DNA of 64,000 bases from an uncultured bacterium (GTDB lineage Bacteria; Bacillota; Clostridia; Lachnospirales; Lachnospiraceae): positions 80,184 to 144,183 of the forward strand of contig CANSLJ010000008.1 in the NCBI GenBank assembly GCA_947647735.1. The letters are read 5' to 3'. Positions within the stretch are counted from its first letter, which is position 1, and each line of letters starts with the position of its first letter. The notes under the pieces are model-generated. The model was given only the letters and a program-made list of their open reading frames with translations, searched no databases and had not been told where the DNA came from. Shown piece after piece: positions 18,747-49,154 of this stretch. The position numbers were made by a program, and so were the translations under genes.

Positions 18747-19589
18747 CTACCCTTTCACAGCCCCCGCCGTCAAACTCTCCACCACCTGCTTCTGCAGAAC
18801 AATAAACAAAATGATCGTCGGCAGTACCGTCATGACAACCGCCGCAAACAGAGCGGAATAATTATTGGCAAAGGTTCCCATATAGTAATTCAGCGCGATC
18901 GGCACTGTCCTCGCCGAATCCCCGCTGGTCAGCATCAGCGCAAAATAAAACTCATTCCATGTATTGATAAACTGCAGAAGCGCTATGGTCACAAGCCCCG
19001 GCTTTGCCAGCGGAAGTATGATATAGCCGAACGTCTGTAAAAAAGAAGCCCCGTCTATATAGGCGGATTCCTCCAGCGCTGTGGATATCGTCTTGTAATA
19101 GCTGACCATCACAAAAAAGGACATCGGGATCCCCATCGCCGAATAAACGATGATCAGCCCCAGCTTCGTATCAAAAATATGAAGTTTTTGAAAGATCGCA
19201 AAAAGTGGCTGGGATATCGCCTGTGCCGGCAGCATCAACGATGCCGATATCAAAAGCACGATGAGCGTTTTCAGCTTAAAACGAAACCTTGAGATGATAT
19301 AGGCACACATCGCCACAAGCGCCACCGTAACCAGAACGCTGAGTCCTACGATGATCACACTGTTACAAAAATATCTGGCGATCGGTGCATACTGGAACGC
19401 CGCCCTGTAATTGTCCAGCCTGAAAGAAGACGGAAAGGAAAGCGCGGAAGAATTGATCTCCGCATAGGTTTTAAAGGAACTGATCCCCGCCCACAAAATG
19501 GGCGCCACTGCGATCAGTGTAAAAAACAACATAAAAATATACTTTGCTGTTTTTGCGGCATAAATGATTCCCTGTGGTGTCTTTTTCAT
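18747..19589 (-). CDS. Carbohydrate ABC transporter permease (MalG type)
   Basis: A 280-residue inner permease subunit with six predicted helices. The EAA loop reads EESAYIDGASFLQTFGYIIL and would contact the ATPase. It starts directly after the stop of the MalF-type gene. With the solute-binding protein and MalF-type permease it forms an importer that lacks its own ATPase gene, as is usual in Clostridia where a shared MsmX-type ATPase serves many importers. Substrate is probably an alpha-glucoside, given the adjacent GH65 gene. Confidence 0.94.
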   Translation of the reverse strand: MKKTPQGIIYAAKTAKYIFMLFFTLIAVAPILWAGISSFKTYAEINSSALSFPSSFRLDNYRAAFQYAPIARYFCNSVIIVGLSVLVTVALVAMCAYIISRFRFKLKTLIVLLISASLMLPAQAISQPLFAIFQKLHIFDTKLGLIIVYSAMGIPMSFFVMVSYYKTISTALEESAYIDGASFLQTFGYIILPLAKPGLVTIALLQFINTWNEFYFALMLTSGDSARTVPIALNYYMGTFANNYSALFAAVVMTVLPTIILFIVLQKQVVESLTAGAVKG

Positions 19590-20477
19590 CTATCTTCCAT
19601 CCTCCTCTCCTGCTCTTGTCATAAACAGACGCTGTATCAACAGTACCAGTGTTATCCCGATCACGATCTGCACCACGCCCACCGCATTGGCTTTTCCGTA
19701 ATTGTTTTCCAGTGTTGCCGCCTTATACAGATAGATCGGCAGATTTAACGTACTGCTCCCGGGACCGCCCTTCGTCGTCATATAGATAATGTCAAACTGG
19801 GAGACCATCGCCACGGAAGCCAGCGTGACACAGGTGCCGAAGATATTTTTCATCAGCGGCAATGTGATATACCTGTCAACCTGCCACGGCTTTGCGCCGT
19901 CCACCCGGGCGGCTTCATAGATCTCCTTGTCGATCGCCCCCATCTCCGCCAGAAAGATGATCGTATTAAAACCGGAATATAAGATCCATGTCAATGTCAC
20001 GGTCCAGAACGCATATCTGGAATTTCCGAACAGATTCGGCACCCGGCTCATATCGAGCCCCAGCTTTTCCCACAGCGGTTTTATCACACCAAAGCTGGGA
20101 TTTAAAAGCAGCGTAAACATCACGCCTGTCGCCGCCGTAGGGATGATGTTCGGTATCATATAAGCCGTACGCACGACCTGCCAGCCCTTCGGCTTTCTTC
20201 TCAGCACCAGCGCCATCGCAAGCCCCAGCGTCACATGAAAAGTGGACTGCAGCAGTACCCACACCAGCGTATTTTTAATGGATATCCGAAAACTCTCATC
20301 CGCGAAGATCGTCATAAAGTTTTTCAATCCTGTAAACTCCGGCGATGAAAACGTTGTGTAATTGCACAGGGACGTATAAAACACGGTCACAATGGGCGCC
20401 GCATAGACCAGCGCAAACAGCAGCATACAGGGCATGGTAAACAACGTGATCCACAACCCCTTGTTTTTTATCTTCAT
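19590..20477 (-). CDS. Carbohydrate ABC transporter permease (MalF type)
   Basis: A 295-residue permease with six predicted helices and the EAA loop EAARVDGAKPWQVDRYITLP. It follows the solute-binding protein gene after a spacer with a weak terminator and abuts the MalG-type gene without a gap. GAGG-type SD bases (AAGGAGGC) precede the ATG. It forms the membrane channel together with its neighbour. Confidence 0.94.
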   Translation of the reverse strand: MKIKNKGLWITLFTMPCMLLFALVYAAPIVTVFYTSLCNYTTFSSPEFTGLKNFMTIFADESFRISIKNTLVWVLLQSTFHVTLGLAMALVLRRKPKGWQVVRTAYMIPNIIPTAATGVMFTLLLNPSFGVIKPLWEKLGLDMSRVPNLFGNSRYAFWTVTLTWILYSGFNTIIFLAEMGAIDKEIYEAARVDGAKPWQVDRYITLPLMKNIFGTCVTLASVAMVSQFDIIYMTTKGGPGSSTLNLPIYLYKAATLENNYGKANAVGVVQIVIGITLVLLIQRLFMTRAGEEDGR

Positions 20478-20497
20478 GGCATGCCTCCTTTTAAAAA

Positions 20498-20519
20498 AGG
20501 GACCGCATAAGCAGTCCCT
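20498..20519 (-). terminator. Partial terminator between binding-protein and permease genes
   Basis: A 6-bp stem AGGGAC/GTCCCT with a 10-base loop is followed on the minus strand by TTTTTT. Its position after the binding-protein gene suggests it lowers expression of the permeases relative to the binding protein. Confidence 0.65.
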
Positions 20520-20531
20520 GCCGTTTCCTTA

Positions 20532-21914
20532 TCACTCCTGATTCTTCTTCGCCGATTCAGACAGTTTTTCACAGAACTCCCCGGGCGTGATATTGCCGTA
20601 AGCGAGCTCAGGCAGTTCTGTCGAAAAGGTATCTATCGTATTCTGATACCAGTAAGCCTGATTCTGCCCGTATGTAACCTCCGCCTGATTCTGGATCTCC
20701 AGAACCTGTGCCATCAGCGGATCGCTCTGCGTCAGCTCAGAGGGAATCTCCAGATCGTTGGATACCGGCTGCAGGCCTGTCATCTCCAGTGCCTTGATCT
20801 GATTTTCCGGTTTCGTCTCAAACTTCAGGAAGGCAACTGCGGCCCTGATCTTCTCCTCCTCGGAAGCTCCCACCATATCGCCCGGTGTGGGAACCATCTC
20901 CATACCCTTACCCGGCATCAGCATAATACCTACTTTGTCATAAAATCCCTCCGGTGCTTTCTCCGTCTCCGAAAAATCCGGGATCATCCAGGGACCATTG
21001 GGGAACATCGCCACTTCCCCGTTGAAGAAATGGGTTGCCATGGGATCGTATTTTCCGCCCACTGCATCCGCTGTTGTGTATTCCTGGAACATTCTCTGGA
21101 TCGTCTCTGCAGCCGCTTCCACTTCCGGCGTGTTAAAATCCGTCGGATACATGCTGTTCATCCATGTGTTTCCGGCTTCCCCGTCTGTTCCGATCAGTGC
21201 GCTCATCCACAGATTGGTGAGCCATCCCGAATCCGCCGTATCCATTCCCACCGGGATAATGCCCGCCGCTTTCAGCTTATCACAGGCTTCAAAAAACTCT
21301 TCCCATGTGGCATAGGAAACCTCCGGGGCTTCAATGCCTGCCTGCGCAAACAATTCCTTATTGTAATAGATGTAGGAAATCTCTTTGGAAACGGGAACAC
21401 CATATATCTTGCCGTCCACCGTATTAAACTCCAGAGATGTCTCATCAAACAGGGCTTTCCATTCAGGATCTTCCTCAAAATACGGTGTCAGATCCGCAAC
21501 CTTTCCTGATCTCGCCGCCAGCTCCGTGATATTGTTACCGCCGTTAAACACGATATCGGGAAGGTCCCCGCTGGAGATCAGAAGCTTGATCTTCTGGTTG
21601 AAAGCGTCTGTCGTCGGTATCTCCTCAAAATGAAACTCTACATTTTTGCCTTCCTCGGTCTGCTGAAAAGCCTCAAACAGGTAGGTATAATATTCCGCCG
21701 CATAGTCAGTTCCCACATGATAGTTGATCACATCCAGCACGATCTTATCCCCGGAAGAGTCCTCCGCCTCCTGCCCTGTGCTCTCACCGGCTGCCACACT
21801 CTCACTTCCTGTCTCTGTCCCGCTCCCCGCGCTGTTTCCACAGGCAGTCAGCGACAGCACCATCACGCCGGTCAATACCGCACTGAAAAACCTGCTTACT
21901 GTTTTCTTCTTCAT
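20532..21914 (-). CDS. Sugar ABC transporter solute-binding lipoprotein
   Basis: A 460-residue extracellular binding protein of the family 1 (MalE-like) type. A signal peptide ends in the lipobox LTAC with lipidated Cys25, followed by a Gly/Ser/Glu-rich linker. The mature part has the YGVPVSKEISYIYYNKELF segment that is common in this family. AAGGAGG precedes the ATG. It is the first gene of the operon with two permeases, GH65 phosphorylase and HAD phosphatase, and is divergent from a YesM-type kinase likely to control it. Substrate is probably an alpha-linked disaccharide; this is inferred from the GH65 neighbour. Confidence 0.94.
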   Translation of the reverse strand: MKKKTVSRFFSAVLTGVMVLSLTACGNSAGSGTETGSESVAAGESTGQEAEDSSGDKIVLDVINYHVGTDYAAEYYTYLFEAFQQTEEGKNVEFHFEEIPTTDAFNQKIKLLISSGDLPDIVFNGGNNITELAARSGKVADLTPYFEEDPEWKALFDETSLEFNTVDGKIYGVPVSKEISYIYYNKELFAQAGIEAPEVSYATWEEFFEACDKLKAAGIIPVGMDTADSGWLTNLWMSALIGTDGEAGNTWMNSMYPTDFNTPEVEAAAETIQRMFQEYTTADAVGGKYDPMATHFFNGEVAMFPNGPWMIPDFSETEKAPEGFYDKVGIMLMPGKGMEMVPTPGDMVGASEEEKIRAAVAFLKFETKPENQIKALEMTGLQPVSNDLEIPSELTQSDPLMAQVLEIQNQAEVTYGQNQAYWYQNTIDTFSTELPELAYGNITPGEFCEKLSESAKKNQE

Positions 21915-40730: not shown

Positions 40731-42422
40731 CTATTCCTTTAAACAGAATCTGCTGACCAGATCCTCCATAAGCTGTGACTGGCTTGACAGCTCTTCGCTG
40801 GCTGCCGCGCTCTGCTGGGCTGTCGCCGTATTCGTCTGCACAACATCGGAGATCTGTTCAATTCCAATGGTGATCTGAGAGATCGCCTCCGCCTGGTTAT
40901 CGCTGGCTTCTGAGATCTGGGTGATAATACCGGTGACCTCCCTGACTCCGCCGGCTGTCTGATCCAGCATCTTCGCCGTCTCATCGGCTATCCGTGTTCC
41001 GTGCTCCACCGCCTTTATGATATTATCTATCAGTGACGCCGTATTGCCGGAAGCTTCGGCACTTTTATCGACCAGGGTACGGACCTCCTCAGCGACAACG
41101 GCAAACCCTTTTCCGGCATCTCCCGCCCGTGCCGCCTCTATGGAAGCGTTGAGCGCAAGAATATTAGTCTGGAAGGCAATATCTTCGATCGTCTTAATGA
41201 TCTTGTAGATCTCATCCGTACAGCCGTTGATATCATTCATGGCATGAATCATTTCCTGCATCTTTTGATTGCTTTCATCCATCCTGCCTCCAACAGTATC
41301 AGCCATACGGCTCGCCTGCCGTGCATGCTCGGCATTCTGTTTTACCCTCTCGGAGACCTCATTGATGCTTGCGGCAAGCTCTTCAACCGAGCCGGCCTGT
41401 TCCACCGCTCCCTGAGAAAGCGCCTGCGCCCCGTTGGATACCTGGTCAGAGCTGCTCGCCACCTGGATGGAGCTTTGGCTGATCTGAAGTATCGTATTGT
41501 TCAGTTTATCGGCGATCTCCCGGAAAGAAACCAGAAGCGGGTAGAAGCCGCCGGTATATTCCTCCTCACAGGCAGTGTCCACCGTAAAATCGCCGGAAGC
41601 CATCTGCGCCAGAAAACGGTTTTCGTCCTCGATGATCGTCTGCAATTTCCGGATCAGCACCCTCACCTGATCGGAGAGCACTCCCAGCTCATCCTCGGAG
41701 GTGTAGGATATCTCTATGTCCAGATCACCCTGCGCCATTCTGGAAGCGGCATCCTTTATTTCCAGAACCGGAAGCCTAATCCCGCGAATGATCACAAAGG
41801 AGAAGTAAACGCCTGTCAGGATCGTTATCAGCATAATGCCTGACTGCACGATCGTTGAGTTTCGATAGATCCTTTTGCTGGAAAGAGTCTCCGCCTCGCT
41901 CCCGCTCACATTATAGGTAACGATATCATTGAGAGCGCCGCTCAACCCATTATAAAGTTCCACACACTCTCCCTCAAGAATGGAGCGCGCCTCATCCTTC
42001 TGCCCCGCTTTTCCCAGTTCTATCAAACGGTTATCCGCCTCACTGTACTCACTCCAGTACCTTGCGGCCTTCTCGTACAGGCTCCTCTCATCTTCATCGA
42101 TCATTCCCGCATACCGGGCCAAAAGCGAATCCATCTCGCCCTTTTCCTTTTCGACATACTGCAGGCTCATATCCTCCATTTCCTCTGTAAGCGCGGTGAG
42201 GTATCCCAATTCGTTGAGCCGGATATTGGACAATGTGGCAGTCATGTCCCTTGCGACATCTACACTGGGCAGCCAGCTGGTCGAGATATCGTTGTTCTTA
42301 TCGTTCATGATGCCCATCAAGAAAAAGGACATTCCTCCGATAAGGAGCATACCAACCAGCGCGACCCCTACCAGTACATAGAGCTTTAAACCGATCTTTA
42401 AATTTTGAATTTTCCTTACCAT
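40731..42422 (-). CDS. Methyl-accepting chemotaxis protein
   Basis: A chemoreceptor of about 563 residues. A first helix (about 12-34), an extracellular four-helix-bundle sensor (about 35-190) and a second helix precede a HAMP domain, a second HAMP-like segment and the signalling domain. The hairpin tip has [20 protein letters not shown], identical in pattern to the CheW/CheA-binding tip. The ATG at 42422 with AAAGGA ten bases upstream is preferred over the longer frame to 42488. The promoter is clear. It lies downstream of the lipoprotein/hybrid-kinase operon and may respond to the same ligand through a binding protein. No che genes are in the window. Confidence 0.93.
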
Positions 42423-42524
42423 GTCAAATTGATCCTTTCCAGTTTTATCGTACAGATACTTCCTGTTCCGGTTTTGATCCGGTACCAAAAGTATAGGTTC
42501 AGCTTTTACGCCAAACCCATTTAA

Positions 42525-42721: not shown

Positions 42722-45373
42722 TTATGCTTCCATCACCGTTTTAATGGTCCGCTCCAGCACGCCGATATCCACGGGCTTCGCCACGTGGGCGTTCATGCCG
42801 GATTCCAGTGCGTCGCGGATGTCCTCGGAAAAGGCGTTGGCGGTCATAGCGATAATGGGAATGGTTTCTGCCAGCGGATGCTCCAGCGCCCTGATCGCTC
42901 CGGCCGCCTCATAGCCGTTCATCACCGGCATCTGCACATCCATCAGGATTAGCTGATACTGGCCCGGAACAGATTTTGCAAAGGCCTCCACCGCAAGCTG
43001 CCCGTTTTCACAGATTTCACAGGAAGCCCCCATCATATCCAACAGTTCGGAAAGTATCTCAGCATTGATCTCATTATCTTCCGCCGCCAGAATATGCATT
43101 CCCTGCAGAATGCTCTTCTCCTCCTCTTCCTTCTCCTCTGTCGAATCAGCCGGCGCGGCGTTCAGCAGATGATCCATCTTCCGGCGGAAGTTTGTCAGGA
43201 AGAAGGGCTTGGGCATAATGGCGTCGATGCCTGCCTCCCGGGCCTCCTCCTCGATATCCACCCAATCGTAACTGGTGAGCACCAGGATCGGAATATCCTT
43301 CGGTACCGCCTGACGGATACGGCGGGCAGTTTCCACCCCGTCCATGCCCGGCATCTTCCAGTCCAGTAAAACCACATGATACAGCCTGCCTTCCTCCTCC
43401 GAACGCCTGACCATATCCACTGCCTCCCGGCCCTCCAGCGTATAGTCCACCTGAACGCCGGTTCCTTCCATAGTCATCCGGACGCTCTGACAGCTTATCT
43501 CTTCATCGTCCACCACCAGCAGCCGGGAGATGCCGTTCTTCTGCCAGAAATCGTGATCGACCGCGTCTTCGCTGATATGCAGCTCCAGATCCACCGTAAA
43601 CCTGGAACCCTGCCCTTTCCGGCTTTCCACGGAAATGATGCCGCCCATCAGATCCAGCAGGTTTTTGGTGATAGCCATACCCAGGCCGGTTCCCTGAATC
43701 TTGTTGGTAATACTGTCCTCCTCCCGGGTGAACGCCTGAAAAATACGCTTTACATAATCCTCGCTCATACCGTAGCCATTATCTTCCACAACAAAGCGGA
43801 AACGTGCCAGCTGCTGCGTGAGCTGAGGCAGTTCCTCCATTGTCAGTGCGATATGTCCGCCCTCCGGCGTATATTTCACCGCATTGGATAAAAGATTCAA
43901 CAGGATCTGGTTCAGCCGCAGCCTATCCATCACTACCCGTTCATGGCGAAGTCCCTTGTTATATACCTCAAAGGTATGTCCCTTTGCCTTCATCTGAGGG
44001 CGGATGATGGAGTCAATGCCCTCGATCAGCTCTTCCATATTTTCATCGGACAGGTTCAACGCGGTCTTCCCCGCCTCGATCTTACTGATATCCAGAATAT
44101 CGTTGATCAGGCCCAGCAGATGCTGTCCTGACGAGGTGATCTTTTTCGTATACTCCCGCACCTTATCCGGGTTCTCCGCATCCCTCGCCAGAAGAGCCGC
44201 AAAGCCCACGATAGCATTCATCGGCGTGCGGATGTCATGGCTCATATTGGACAGGAAGGAACTCTTGGCGCGGTTGGCATCCTCGGCGATCCGGAATGCC
44301 TGCTCCGCCGTCTCCTTGGACTGCACCAGCATGGTATTATATTCCTCCAGCTGCTGGTTCAGCTCCTCCTGCCGGCGCAGGCTCGCCTGTTCCTGCAGGT
44401 ACAGCCTGTTGCTGCTGCGCTGCCGCAGCACGGCAACAGCCGCCAGCACCACCAGCACCACCAAAATTACCGCAAAGATCAGCAGGGCGCGGATCACCAT
44501 GTTCATCATCTCCACCGTGCCCGCCGCAACAAAATCCGCCGGGATAAGGAAGAGCAACAGCGTGTCGTACTCCTCCAGAGAGGTGATACAGTAATAATAT
44601 TCCTGCCCCTCCATCCGGAAATTACTGCTGATGGTATCCTCCTTCGCCAAAGCAGAGCGGATATCGGTATACTTCTGTCCCTCCATCTCCTCCAGCACTT
44701 TGAGCACATTGTACGCCTGAATCGAATTTTTCTGAGAGATGTTGTCATGCATCCGGGTACCGTTACTCTTCAGTATATAAGTCTCATTCTGGCTGCCATA
44801 GGCGGCGCTGTCATAATACTCGGTAAGTGTCTGAACATCCTTAAACAGCACGACATGTGTAAAACTCAGGCCGTCACCGGTCCGGATCGGCTCCTTCAGC
44901 TTCTGCACAAAAACCCAGAAACTGCCGTCATACAGGCTGCTGTCGGATATGAAAGTATATCGTTCCTCTCCGCCCGCCACCAGATCGATGTCAGACCATA
45001 CGCCATGCCTGCCCTGCACATCATAGCAGCTGCCCTGACTGTCCAGCAGCATAAGGGCAGCGCTGTAATTTTCCGTCTCCAGCAGCTTCTCCAGCTTCTC
45101 CACATAATCCGTCACGTCATCCTCACCATCGAACTGTCCTGCCTCCAGGGCATTGACAGCGGCGGTGAGATAATTCCAATGGGTATCCAGCGCATTATCC
45201 AGATTGGCCCGCACCTGGGTAGTGATCTCCTCCAGCTGCGTCGTACGCTCCACATAAATCTGTGACTCTAAATATCTTTCAAAATAAAAGCCGCCTGCCA
45301 GCAGAAACAAAAGCAGCCCCAGAACAAGTGCCGCCGGGAGGACGGCGTTTTGTTTTGCTTTATCGAAGCCCAT
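42722..45373 (-). CDS. Hybrid sensor histidine kinase with two receiver domains
   Basis: A membrane kinase of about 883 residues. A first helix (about 10-30), an extracellular Cache-like sensor of about 250 residues and a second helix (about 290-315) are followed by a coiled coil, the acceptor histidine in SNMSHDIRTPMNAIVGF, a full ATPase domain (DNGYGMSEDYVKRIFQAF, GTGLGMAI), and two receivers: VVLLDWKMPGMDG (about 605-725) and LILMDVQMPVMNGYEA (about 755-880). No HPt domain and no DNA-binding partner are adjacent. The start is uncertain: ATG 45373 has GGTGA; TTG 45394 would overlap the previous stop. It follows two binding lipoproteins, which probably present the signal. Confidence 0.88.
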   Translation of the reverse strand: MGFDKAKQNAVLPAALVLGLLLFLLAGGFYFERYLESQIYVERTTQLEEITTQVRANLDNALDTHWNYLTAAVNALEAGQFDGEDDVTDYVEKLEKLLETENYSAALMLLDSQGSCYDVQGRHGVWSDIDLVAGGEERYTFISDSSLYDGSFWVFVQKLKEPIRTGDGLSFTHVVLFKDVQTLTEYYDSAAYGSQNETYILKSNGTRMHDNISQKNSIQAYNVLKVLEEMEGQKYTDIRSALAKEDTISSNFRMEGQEYYYCITSLEEYDTLLLFLIPADFVAAGTVEMMNMVIRALLIFAVILVVLVVLAAVAVLRQRSSNRLYLQEQASLRRQEELNQQLEEYNTMLVQSKETAEQAFRIAEDANRAKSSFLSNMSHDIRTPMNAIVGFAALLARDAENPDKVREYTKKITSSGQHLLGLINDILDISKIEAGKTALNLSDENMEELIEGIDSIIRPQMKAKGHTFEVYNKGLRHERVVMDRLRLNQILLNLLSNAVKYTPEGGHIALTMEELPQLTQQLARFRFVVEDNGYGMSEDYVKRIFQAFTREEDSITNKIQGTGLGMAITKNLLDLMGGIISVESRKGQGSRFTVDLELHISEDAVDHDFWQKNGISRLLVVDDEEISCQSVRMTMEGTGVQVDYTLEGREAVDMVRRSEEEGRLYHVVLLDWKMPGMDGVETARRIRQAVPKDIPILVLTSYDWVDIEEEAREAGIDAIMPKPFFLTNFRRKMDHLLNAAPADSTEEKEEEEKSILQGMHILAAEDNEINAEILSELLDMMGASCEICENGQLAVEAFAKSVPGQYQLILMDVQMPVMNGYEAAGAIRALEHPLAETIPIIAMTANAFSEDIRDALESGMNAHVAKPVDIGVLERTIKTVMEA

Positions 45374-45390
45374 AGCGTTCACCATCCCTC

Positions 45391-47217
45391 TCAATGCAGC
45401 GTGATATAGTCCGTAGGTGCCGCCAGCTGCCGTCCATCCTTCAGACGATTCACAATGATCTGTTTATACGGAGTCTCTGTGACAGTATATTCGGTGACGC
45501 CGGCAGCCTCCAGTGCGTCCTGAAGCATCATCGTCATATCGCCGACCACGGCAGCGGTATAGGCTGCTTCCCGATCCAGCTCCCGGCCTCCAACAGTCAG
45601 CTGTTCCAGAGCATAGCCGGAGTCCGTCCTCCGGATAGCCATCTCAAAGCCGCTGGACACATACAGCGTTGAGTCGTTGCTCACCGATCCCCGTTTGCCC
45701 CGGGCAGTCAAAATATATTCCACATACCGGTACAGCTGATCCCCGGTCATCTCACACAGAGCCACTGTCGGAGACTCTCCCATGGTCAGAAAGCCCAGCT
45801 CTGCCTGCGTGTAGTCCCCGGCGGAGATATCTCCCGCCACAGCCGCGGCAGGCCCGATGAGCAGCTCAGCGCCCGTCTCCTCCCGGACAGAGTTCAGCAC
45901 TGCCGAAGCCGCCTGACTGCCATGCTCCGGATCAAAGATATAGGAATAGCCGGTATCGATATGAGCCGCCTGCTCTGCACCATCTTCCGGCGAATCCATC
46001 ATAGCGTTAAAGGCATCAAAGGCGGAAAGGGCATCCGGATAGGTTCCGTCGATCATGCCCTGTACCACGGTCTTCGACACAGAAAACATATCCGCCGAAG
46101 CCAGCCTGATATACAGCCGGTTATCGTCAACATAAGGCTGGAGGCCCGCCAGAGAAGGAGACAGGTCGATGGTCACCCCTTTGTTGTAAGGCACCATATT
46201 CTGGCTGGCTGCAATACTCCGCTGGCCCTCCTCGCTGAGCATGGCTGTAATAACATCCAGGATCAGTTCTCTGCGCCCGGGATCTGTTGTCTCTTTGGCT
46301 GCAATCTGAAAGGCTGGATAAGTAAGGTACCAGTTGTCCTCCGGGCTGCTGCCAAAGTAAGGCATCAACAAAGATTCCCTGCCCTCACCGCCGTATCTCG
46401 CCGCATCCTCCCCGGTTCCCCGGAACATCGCCGCCCGGCCGGCGGTATACTCGTCAGTCACGTTGATGCTGCCATCCATATCTGCGGTTGTGATACCGGC
46501 ATAATCAATAAACTCCTCCATCCGCTGAAACACGGGGAGCCAGACATCCTCACTGAGCTGGTTCGTCTGGCCGGACTCATACTGCTGCCGCCACTCCCGC
46601 CCCGCCTGAGAGGCAAGCTGTTCCACCGACAGCCCCTGAAGGACCTCCATACAAGTGTAATCCGCATCAAAGCCGGAGAGAAAAGGGCGGATCCCCTTTT
46701 CCTGCAACGTGCCGCACAGCGCGACAAACTCCTCATAGTCGGCAGGGACAGCCAGGCCTTCTTTCTCTAGCAGGGTCTTATTCACGATGATACTGTCGAT
46801 CTCGGCACAGGCGGGCAGCCAGTTTATGGTGCCGTCGCTGTAGGTGTAACTGCGCAGGTAAGACTGCGGAAAGGTGTTTGTCAGTTCGCAGTCGCTCAGA
46901 TCCATCAGCTCTCCGCGCCACTTTTCCACGTCCCGCAGCGCAAAGCGGCGGACAGTGAGAATATCAGGCAGGTCCTCCTGCTCCATCTTAAACCGATAGA
47001 AATCAGTGGAGTTGGTGGCTATATAAAAGGTGAAGTCCACCTCCGGGAACTGCTCCTGCAGATAAGCGGCGTACTGCTCTGTCAGCTGATCGCTCCACAG
47101 AGCCACAGTGATCTGCTCCCTCCCGGTCTCTGCCCCCGGCTTGTTCCCGCTGCCGCAGGCGGACAGAGCCGTTATCAGCAGCGCCATTGCAAGGATGAAA
47201 GAAAGTTTCCTTTTCAT
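45391..47217 (-). CDS. Solute-binding lipoprotein with 5'-nucleotidase-C-like tail (second)
   Basis: A 608-residue lipoprotein. Lipobox LSAC with Cys21. The first 420 residues resemble a family 1 extracellular solute-binding protein (INWLPACAEIDSIIVNKTLL, then AAMFRGTGEDAARYGG). The last 165 residues resemble the C-terminal domain of secreted 5'-nucleotidases (GAELLIGPAAAVAGDISAG, LCEMTGDQLYRYVEYIL, LYVSSGFEMAIRR), but the metal-binding N-terminal catalytic domain is absent, so no nucleotidase activity is expected. No permease gene is nearby. It precedes the hybrid kinase directly and probably acts as a ligand receptor for it. Confidence 0.82.
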   Translation of the reverse strand: MKRKLSFILAMALLITALSACGSGNKPGAETGREQITVALWSDQLTEQYAAYLQEQFPEVDFTFYIATNSTDFYRFKMEQEDLPDILTVRRFALRDVEKWRGELMDLSDCELTNTFPQSYLRSYTYSDGTINWLPACAEIDSIIVNKTLLEKEGLAVPADYEEFVALCGTLQEKGIRPFLSGFDADYTCMEVLQGLSVEQLASQAGREWRQQYESGQTNQLSEDVWLPVFQRMEEFIDYAGITTADMDGSINVTDEYTAGRAAMFRGTGEDAARYGGEGRESLLMPYFGSSPEDNWYLTYPAFQIAAKETTDPGRRELILDVITAMLSEEGQRSIAASQNMVPYNKGVTIDLSPSLAGLQPYVDDNRLYIRLASADMFSVSKTVVQGMIDGTYPDALSAFDAFNAMMDSPEDGAEQAAHIDTGYSYIFDPEHGSQAASAVLNSVREETGAELLIGPAAAVAGDISAGDYTQAELGFLTMGESPTVALCEMTGDQLYRYVEYILTARGKRGSVSNDSTLYVSSGFEMAIRRTDSGYALEQLTVGGRELDREAAYTAAVVGDMTMMLQDALEAAGVTEYTVTETPYKQIIVNRLKDGRQLAAPTDYITLH

Positions 47218-47233
47218 TCCGTTTCTCCTTTCT

Positions 47234-49009
47234 TTATTCCCAGAGATTCCCGCCAGGGGAAACCGTCTTCTGTTCCGTCAGCCATTCCCGCAGAAATCCG
47301 CGGACGGCTCCCTTTTCTACCCGGGCGTTATAGGCCTGCCCCGCCTCTTCGGTGTAGCTCTGCATCAAAAAGGCTATCTGATAGACCTCGTTGTCCTCCA
47401 GTTCACCGCCGCCTTTGACCACTAAGGTGTAGGGGTATGGATCTCCGTCCCCCGCCTGGTCAAAACCGGCAGCCGCCATCTCCTTTGCCTGTGCCCCGGT
47501 CATGGTCAAAATAGCATATTCCCCCTCCAGGCCGGGGGCGATGGTATTGCTCACCTCTATGTTGATCCGGTCCTGATAGAGCCTGCCGGTCACACCGGCA
47601 TTCAGCCGCCTACCCTCCTTATAGGTTTCTGTGTAGGGAATCATAGCGGCATCCGCGTCCACAGCGCTGCCCAGCGCCTTCCCCGCAAGCTGCGCGGTTT
47701 CTTCTATGGTAAAATCTGCCGTGCTCTCACAGAAATAGATGGTATCCTGAGTATTCAGATAACTACTTTGCAGCTCATCCATCCGGGCAATACATTTAGA
47801 GCCGTCCATATCGTTCTCTCCCCGGAACCACTCCTTATACGCCTGCCCCATATCCGCCAGAACATTTTCCCAATGGGCGTAAGTCATCTGGAATGCCCGG
47901 CCTTCCCGCATAGCCTGCTGAGCATCGTAGATCATGGAGTCCTCCTGCACTTCCCCGCTGTCCAGCACACTGAGCATACAGGGCGTGCCTTCGTTGATAA
48001 ACGCCGCCTGCCCTTCCGGGGCATAGAGCAGAGACAAAAGCTGCAGAGCCTTCTCCAGCTTTTCCTCATTGCCCGGCTCGGTCAGCCGCTTACTGATCCC
48101 GATGCGGGAGGAGGAATTGTACATATAAATATTCTTGCTGCCGTCCTCCCCTATGTAAGGCATCATTCCCACTTCATCGCCGTTCGACAAAACAGAACTG
48201 CCCATCGTCGCTGACATCGTGAAAAAGACAGTCTTCCGTCCCGCCAGATAATCCTCGATCAGTGCCGCATTGGGCCGGTCCTCCGGATCGGTAGTAAACA
48301 TGCCGATATCGATATATTCCTGCGCATACGCCATGGTGCCTTCCCACATGCCCTCCGCCGAAGCCTTTCCCGCCAGGAAATCCTGCTCCCAGTTCACCCC
48401 TTCCGGCGTGGTGAGCCAGCTGGTCTTTGCCAGATTAAATACAGCGGAAAAAGTGTTTCCTGTCAGCTCCGTTCCTATCACGCCGGGGATCAGCCCTGCC
48501 TCCTCGATCTCGGCGCACAGCGCTTTCAGTTCGGCAAAATCCGAAGGTACCTGCCAGCCGTGCTCCTCCATCAGGGTTTTATTATAATAAATACCGTACA
48601 TGGCGTTGTTCACAGGCAGAAGATAAATGCCCCCGTCAATGGCTGCCTGATCCAGAACAGATGTGGAGAAATCGTTGAGAAAATCATAGCTGGACAGATC
48701 TGCCAGACGCTCCTTCGCCAGATCCTCATCCAGGACCTGGGAAGTGACAAAGATGTCCGGGATATCGTCTCCCCTCATCTGGGCCCAGCTGTAGCCGGTA
48801 GCATTGGCCCCTGCATAACAGGACCGCTCCAGCTCGATATCCGGATAGGTTTCAGCCGCCAGCGCTAAAAAATCGTCGTACCCGCCCCACATACCCCAGG
48901 TCAGCACATCGCTTTTTTGCTCAGAGGTTTCCACAGCGGGTGCACAGGCGGACAACAGGGCGGCTGCAACCGAAAATACCAATAGATGACGAATCCGTTT
49001 GATGCGCAT
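47234..49009 (-). CDS. Solute-binding lipoprotein with 5'-nucleotidase-C-like tail (first)
   Basis: A 591-residue paralogue of the next gene. Lipobox LSAC with Cys22. The N-terminal 410 residues look like a family 1 solute-binding protein (GGIYLLPVNNAMYGIYYNKT; WLTTPEGVNWEQDFLAGKAS). The tail (about 425-590) is a more degenerate version of the 5'-nucleotidase C domain (LGSAVDADAAMIPYTETY, LTMTGAQAKEMAAAGF, YTLVVKGGGELEDNEVYQIA). AAAGGAG lies ten bases before the ATG, and a TTGACT/TAATCT promoter lies upstream. It is the first gene of the sensory operon. The ligand is unknown. Confidence 0.82.
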   Translation of the reverse strand: MRIKRIRHLLVFSVAAALLSACAPAVETSEQKSDVLTWGMWGGYDDFLALAAETYPDIELERSCYAGANATGYSWAQMRGDDIPDIFVTSQVLDEDLAKERLADLSSYDFLNDFSTSVLDQAAIDGGIYLLPVNNAMYGIYYNKTLMEEHGWQVPSDFAELKALCAEIEEAGLIPGVIGTELTGNTFSAVFNLAKTSWLTTPEGVNWEQDFLAGKASAEGMWEGTMAYAQEYIDIGMFTTDPEDRPNAALIEDYLAGRKTVFFTMSATMGSSVLSNGDEVGMMPYIGEDGSKNIYMYNSSSRIGISKRLTEPGNEEKLEKALQLLSLLYAPEGQAAFINEGTPCMLSVLDSGEVQEDSMIYDAQQAMREGRAFQMTYAHWENVLADMGQAYKEWFRGENDMDGSKCIARMDELQSSYLNTQDTIYFCESTADFTIEETAQLAGKALGSAVDADAAMIPYTETYKEGRRLNAGVTGRLYQDRINIEVSNTIAPGLEGEYAILTMTGAQAKEMAAAGFDQAGDGDPYPYTLVVKGGGELEDNEVYQIAFLMQSYTEEAGQAYNARVEKGAVRGFLREWLTEQKTVSPGGNLWE

Positions 49010-49154
49010 GACATATCGACTCCTTTTTTGACTAAAAGGTAATATACTTCACTTATATAGATTAGCAGTTTTTATGAAAAAGTCAAGAATACACGCGAGA
49101 GGAGTCTGCCGCACTACGGTAGGTCGGATCTGGCATGATACCGGAAAACCATAT

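Follow-up and report, generated by a model that had tools for sequence, protein, structure and literature searches.

Two binding lipoproteins with orphan 5'-nucleotidase C-terminal domains and a hybrid kinase: a candidate surface receptor of Lachnospiraceae

Two genes for solute-binding proteins (SBPs) immediately upstream of a sensor kinase gene raise the question of whether their products serve in import or in signaling, and of what a 5'-nucleotidase C-terminal domain (C domain) might be doing at the end of each of them. In the window, i.e. the whole stretch of 64,000 nucleotides that was analyzed, which comes from a gut bacterium, such an operon lies on the reverse strand. It is transcribed in the order LP1, LP2, kinase, with a gap of 16 nt between LP1 and LP2 and an overlap of 4 nt between the LP2 stop and the start of the kinase, which is a TTG codon. 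LP1 (47234..49009, 591 aa) is a lipoprotein that joins an SBP domain at about residues 30-390 to an orphan, pocket-less C domain at about residues 425-591. LP2 (45391..47217, 608 aa) has the same make-up, with the Pfam model PF02872 (5_nucleotid_C) matching residues 435-557. The hybrid histidine kinase (42722..45394, 890 aa) comprises a membrane helix, a dCache-type extracytoplasmic sensor at about residues 39-296 (44507..45280), a further helix, HisKA and HATPase_c domains and two receivers; the helices were judged by eye, and the dCache fold is a prediction from structure model comparison. These assignments confirm the basic observation of the original prediction, namely an operon of two SBP/5'-nucleotidase-C lipoproteins and a hybrid kinase. 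On the same strand, what are probably the promoter and ribosome-binding site of the operon were recognized by eye at 49010..49090, where TTGACTTTTT is followed by CTATATAA and then by AAAGGAG ahead of the LP1 start. A consensus promoter scan did not return this region. By eye, similar text is present 5' of LP1 in locus L109, and, with 14 upstream regions aligned, a TTGAC or TTGAT stretch 5' of LP1 in L116, L118, L130 and L135.

Both lipoproteins begin with a signal peptide and a lipobox that are recognizable by eye (LLSAC in LP1 and LSAC in LP2). Pfam detects only SBP domains in LP1, and SBP_bac_8 together with PF02872 in LP2, the latter at 25.8 bits against a cut-off of 23.6. The solute-binding halves of the two proteins share 27% identity, and sugar-binding proteins are the best PDB sequence matches for both of them, with 4G68 being the best match of LP2. 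In excerpted text of a published account, SBP_bac_8 proteins are said to recognize mainly sugars (PMC11113362). Judged from such sequence relationships, a sugar is a possible ligand of LP1 and LP2.

The C domain of LP1 is not recognized by Pfam, nor is that of L043, the nearest LP1-type relative scanned, and PF02872 stays below threshold in the LP1-type relatives L045 (17.0 bits) and L046 (15.2 bits). A profile of 14 orthologues retrieved just two chance matches from the PDB, with E-values of about 0.7. Its identity was settled by profile-profile comparison together with the predicted fold, which in structure comparisons is that of the C domains of UshA, NadN and CD73; the rmsd is 7-10 in many of the alignments, because the N-terminal helix is placed differently, and 3.1-4.4 in those confined to residues 30-196. 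The C domain is a separate fold of its own, which disposes of the suspicion that it might simply be part of the standard binding-protein fold. No metallophosphatase domain precedes it in either LP1 or LP2, Pfam showing an SBP domain in that place. A six-frame search of the host genome with PF02872 yielded no match at E <= 0.001, LP2 itself included; this search is less sensitive here, and we do not claim that the host genome is devoid of nucleotidases.

To assess the ligand pocket, CD73 positions were mapped onto the fusions by motif alignment, with aromatic exchange allowed, and six of them were scored. The sixth is N390, which we take to be a pocket residue of CD73. The remaining five, R354, R395, D506, F417 and F500, are ligand contacts of CD73 according to excerpts of a published study (PMC7508162). 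The scores of the 52 aligned fusions are two-peaked: seven (L044, L047, L050, L053, L063, L067 and L075) keep all six residues and the other 45 keep none or one, with LP1 and LP2 each scoring 0/6. By eye, the pocket is also intact in L197 and L198, which come from other families. The degenerate C domains are under purifying selection and are not decaying. In ten comparisons with relatives the dN/dS of the LP2 C domain is 0.11-0.16, close to that of the LP2 binding domain, and that of the LP1 C domain is 0.09-0.26 in seven of ten (dS being infinite in three), mostly above the LP1 binding domain, all of these being rough figures because nearly all dS values exceed 1. The C domain of LP1 is also less conserved than its binding domain.

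Gene neighborhoods were compared in two surveys, whose counts cannot be added because they overlap (the same loci figure as L041/L158, L068/L114, L070/L118 and L064/L186). In survey 1 a profile of 15 fusions, picked after their neighbors were known, was run against 250 genomes of the family, representing 249 genera. At E <= 1e-30 at least 89 genomes have a match, ordinary SBPs counted in, and by hand count among the matches listed at least 36 have one of fusion length; the loci with fusion-length matches were compared along with 20 shorter ones as a comparison set. A kinase is the immediate same-strand neighbor of 45 of the 51 complete fusion genes longer than 550 aa, a set that includes the window's two and leaves out a 166-aa fragment in L074 and a cut gene in L081. 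With the 15 seeds removed, a hand count gives an adjacent kinase for 31 of 36, the five exceptions being L064 (second gene), two L070 genes at a contig end, L072 and L077. No permease was found within three genes of any of the 51 fusions, as against 23 of the 27 SBPs without a C domain (two cut genes, L048 and L088, and L042 among them), of which just one, L042, has a kinase; the queries, two permeases from the ordinary importer in the window, cover a single importer type. Survey 2 compared LP2-type proteins with named genome contigs, 80 loci being kept from 230 relatives, and counted lipoproteins longer than 450 aa, which leaves aside e.g. the split gene of L177. Here a kinase directly adjoins 73 of 98 lipoproteins at a gap of -160 to 600 nt, on the downstream side in 70 cases and on the upstream side in 7; another 14 lipoproteins open a tandem pair, and the remaining 11 fit neither description, three of them lying at contig ends. 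No permease of the queried importer type was detected within 3.5 kb of any of the 98 lipoproteins. In L160 a less strict cut-off brings up a permease-like gene two genes beyond the kinase. L110, L125, L134, L148 and L154 have such a gene at a distance of 4-7 kb.

Certain neighborhoods contain further elements. In L042 (4747-8823) an LP2-like binding protein without a C domain is encoded 42 nt before a kinase of the same sensor type; since the pairing with the kinase is kept, the C domain is not always needed. A lipoprotein of 271-273 aa is encoded upstream of kinase-lipoprotein-kinase loci in L039 (4560-5375), L057, L060 and L061; the copy in L039 belongs to SBP_bac_3, so that a third binding protein may be present at some loci. 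Genes for proteins of 486-495 aa accompany the lipoprotein-kinase loci L053, L063, L067, L078 and L079, the L067 copy being a GntR-type regulator by Pfam, and a 378 aa protein with a B12-binding domain (L049:12294-13430) is encoded near a lipoprotein-kinase-kinase locus, with a gene of similar size in L073.

Taken as a whole, we put the probability at roughly 80% that LP1, LP2 and the kinase constitute a surface receptor and not an importer, with docking of the lipoproteins on the kinase and output by phosphorelay. That the lipoproteins would signal without transport had been proposed from the outset, and it is supported by the C domain having its own fold and by the finding that no permease of the queried type lies near the genes in either survey. 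They could still be importer binding proteins that use a permease encoded elsewhere, the kinase only regulating that transport: binding proteins can be unlinked from their permeases and work with distant ones, the window has an ordinary set of an SBP and two permeases at 18747-21914, in contrast to the LP1-LP2-kinase trio, and there are further SBP genes in the genome. That no permease of the queried type was found close by, while most SBPs without a C domain have one, makes this improbable. The proposal of a nucleotide ligand has divided fortunes. It is plausible for the seven relatives that retain the equivalents of R354, N390, R395, F417, F500 and D506 of CD73, and the fold shared with UshA, NadN and CD73 might be thought to extend it to LP1 and LP2 as nucleoside or nucleotide receptors; the absence of all six pocket residues from both proteins, which places them squarely in the lower of the two peaks, renders that extension decidedly improbable.

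As to the unity of the trio, the genome survey for the same three-gene order that the original prediction had called for recovered it in 10 other loci (L119, L123, L124, L126, L128-L130, L132, L133 and L135). These include L129, from Schaedlerella arabinosiphila DSM 106076, L133, from Dorea sp. 5-2, in which the trio kinase has 752 aa and one receiver, and L123, with 428 nt between LP1 and LP2; in L118 the trio order can be followed up to the contig end. Other tandem lipoprotein pairs precede a single kinase in L181, L182, L188 and L069. The closest relative found (the L109 genome) keeps all three genes, the LP1-LP2 pair on one contig and the kinase, at 72% identity, on another, and just upstream of this kinase orthologue (L216:5060-7884) is a remnant matching LP2 residues 581-608. 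LP1 is not directly upstream in 14 near-clade LP2-kinase genomes: it is present in eight of them, in three as pieces at contig ends and in L116 at 557 nt beyond the kinase, and the other six gave no LP1 match at E <= 1e-100, one of these (L113) having a 125-aa LP1-like piece that overlaps the LP2 start. In the far clade LP1 was found in none of six genomes at the same threshold. Split LP1 genes, intact in L072, L206, L207 and L208 and with the start cut in L209, have no directly adjoining kinase, and the genome keeps the LP2-kinase pair; in L072 a kinase is situated 2.3 kb upstream of LP1, behind another gene. L116 has a kinase of its own for each lipoprotein, L071 has an LP1-kinase pair, and in the Schaedlerella genome (L211:2728-7224) a second LP1-type lipoprotein is followed not by a hybrid kinase but by separate genes for a 224-aa response regulator and a 583-aa kinase core.

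These patterns of gene order make a single kinase common to LP1 and LP2 likely but unproven. LP2 might instead form a receptor with the window kinase, with LP1 having another partner or acting alone and being merely co-transcribed, as could be argued from the LP2-kinase genomes that lack a detectable LP1 in part of the near clade and throughout the far-clade sample, and from the separate kinases of L116, L071 and L211. The recurrence of the trio, together with split-off LP1 genes that have no directly adjoining kinase in genomes retaining LP2-kinase, speaks against this division, and we regard it as somewhat unlikely. A chemoreceptor with 4HB, HAMP and MCP signal domains (40731-42488, reverse strand) is encoded 233 nt downstream of the kinase on the same strand, and it had been suggested to share the signal. 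It is preceded by a promoter-like site at 42553-42525, which is weak evidence because the consensus scan returned 16 such sites versus 8.1 in shuffled sequences. A chemoreceptor was detected in one of the 80 named loci, namely L109, where it is on the other side of LP1, 267 nt upstream, and in survey 1 one adjoins a fusion only in L083, on the opposite strand. Given its own promoter-like sequence and its rarity at related loci, we rejected the chemoreceptor as a conserved third partner, and the suggestion of a shared signal finds no support. Signaling by the lipoproteins via the chemoreceptor, whether in addition to the kinase or in its place, is very improbable, notwithstanding the chemoreceptor genes close by in both the window and L109 and the CheW-type genes of the host genome, one of which is in a CheA-like frame that also bears an Hpt domain.

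If LP1, LP2 and the kinase do form one receptor, the two lipoproteins would be held outside the cell by their lipid anchors, with the binding domains catching an extracellular solute that is probably carbohydrate-like. Once loaded, they would bind the dimeric kinase at its dCache sensor, comparable to CuaD with CuaS and XylFII with LytS, and docking would alter autophosphorylation of the kinase. The C domain would represent a former nucleoside-binding module that, having lost its pocket in LP1 and LP2, may now be a structural or docking element. From the two receivers phosphate would reach response regulators encoded elsewhere, with a stand-alone Hpt protein as the probable intermediate; these regulators are plausibly enzymes of c-di-GMP synthesis or breakdown. 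The window operon has no response regulator gene, the kinase having two receivers and the next same-strand gene being the chemoreceptor, and no gene with a GGDEF, EAL or HD domain directly adjoins the kinase. The host genome has a stand-alone Hpt gene, and at another of its loci (L196:2726-7622) a small Hpt-like gene separates a two-receiver hybrid kinase from two receiver-HD genes, an arrangement that might serve as a model of how the window kinase relays phosphate. Around the loci 27 receiver genes lack a kinase core; two of them belong to the window and one to an ordinary SBP locus, and several are fragmentary or distant. Eight of the 12 neighboring response regulators among them that were scanned with Pfam have GGDEF, EAL or HD domains, a share without a null control. 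In L077 (6017-10225) an SBP/5'-nucleotidase-C lipoprotein adjoins a dCache_1-GGDEF-EAL protein with no kinase, an arrangement that suggests direct control of c-di-GMP by the lipoprotein.

The operon has relatives beyond its host. At E <= 1e-70, a survey of the order found matches in at least 7 of 295 genomes (the host, five further members of its family, and G522, which belongs to a different family) and a survey of the phylum in at least 3 of 398 (the host, G866 and G855). These two surveys and survey 1 each scored 3-5 candidates per genome, which makes their counts minimum figures. All four loci from these three other families (L197-L200) have an adjacent kinase, and among the relatives are isolates of Schaedlerella and Dorea as well as a Lachnospiraceae isolate. 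These proteins appear to be a fairly large receptor family that borrowed a module from extracellular nucleotidases and has no part in transport; it would explain the role of Lachnospiraceae SBP genes that an annotation based only on domains would assign to transport, would tie outside chemistry to a phosphorelay and perhaps to c-di-GMP control, and would offer a clean case of an enzyme's substrate-recognition domain turning into a receptor part. More tentatively, SBP lipoproteins with a nucleotidase specificity domain may be a new class of receptors with two branches. The intact-pocket branch (7/52), for which the conserved residues predict nucleoside sensing, would possess an SBP-type and a nucleoside-type pocket and could therefore sense a nucleoside jointly with another solute. 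The branch of the window would have given up the second pocket, with two different lipoproteins sharing one dCache kinase dimer instead, and such an asymmetric two-input receptor would set c-di-GMP levels in gut Lachnospiraceae.

Among known systems, LuxP-LuxQ of Vibrio resembles the window's operon in coupling an SBP to a hybrid kinase with a two-part extracytoplasmic sensor that feeds a phosphorelay, and differs in the soluble nature of LuxP, its sugar-like autoinducer, its single SBP and the lack of a known C domain. The 50 fold matches listed for the sensor model do not mention LuxQ by name, to which we attach no weight. NspS-MbaA of Vibrio cholerae, as described in excerpts, has a binding protein that controls a membrane c-di-GMP protein, which is the arrangement seen in L077. 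Unlike the window's operon, it works with a polyamine SBP and is not known to include a C domain or a kinase. UshA, NadN and CD73 share the fold of the LP1 C domain but combine it with a metallophosphatase domain and have a functional nucleoside pocket, whereas LP1 and LP2 have neither. XylFII-LytS, from Clostridium beijerinckii, differs from the window's operon in its SBP family and kinase type and has no known C domain. In this system, excerpts of the literature describe an SBP that acts on the kinase sensor, in a complex with two copies each of the SBP and the sensor domain (PMC10384115). The same excerpts describe CuaD-CuaS-CuaR of Ruminiclostridium cellulolyticum, in which, as in the window, a family-1 SBP gene stands beside the gene of a sensor kinase with a large extracytoplasmic sensor, the SBP being an extra one dedicated to sensing, as is proposed for LP1 and LP2; CuaD binds CuaS, cellobiose use is more efficient with CuaD, and CuaD was modeled on 4G68 (PMC10384115), the SBP that LP2 matches best in the PDB by sequence. 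Unlike LP1 and LP2, CuaD is a single, ordinary two-domain SBP without a nucleotidase C domain, and unlike the window, the CuaDSR operon includes a response regulator gene and controls a neighboring importer (PMC10384115). Excerpted text on characterized SBP-kinase couples gives 10 of 11 as gene neighbors (PMC11113362), and, as in SBP-dependent sensor kinases, an SBP gene in the window adjoins the kinase gene and a folded extracytoplasmic sensor is predicted. Judging by titles and the beginnings of abstracts, we found no description in the open-access literature of SBP/5'-nucleotidase-C fusions with kinases, nor of an orphan C domain as fusion partner, of the two-peaked pattern in which its pocket was lost, of the repeated use of two lipoproteins or of how large the family is. 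SBP-driven kinases as such are already known, and by analogy the working principle of the window's operon would be that of CuaD-CuaS, XylFII-LytS and LuxPQ.
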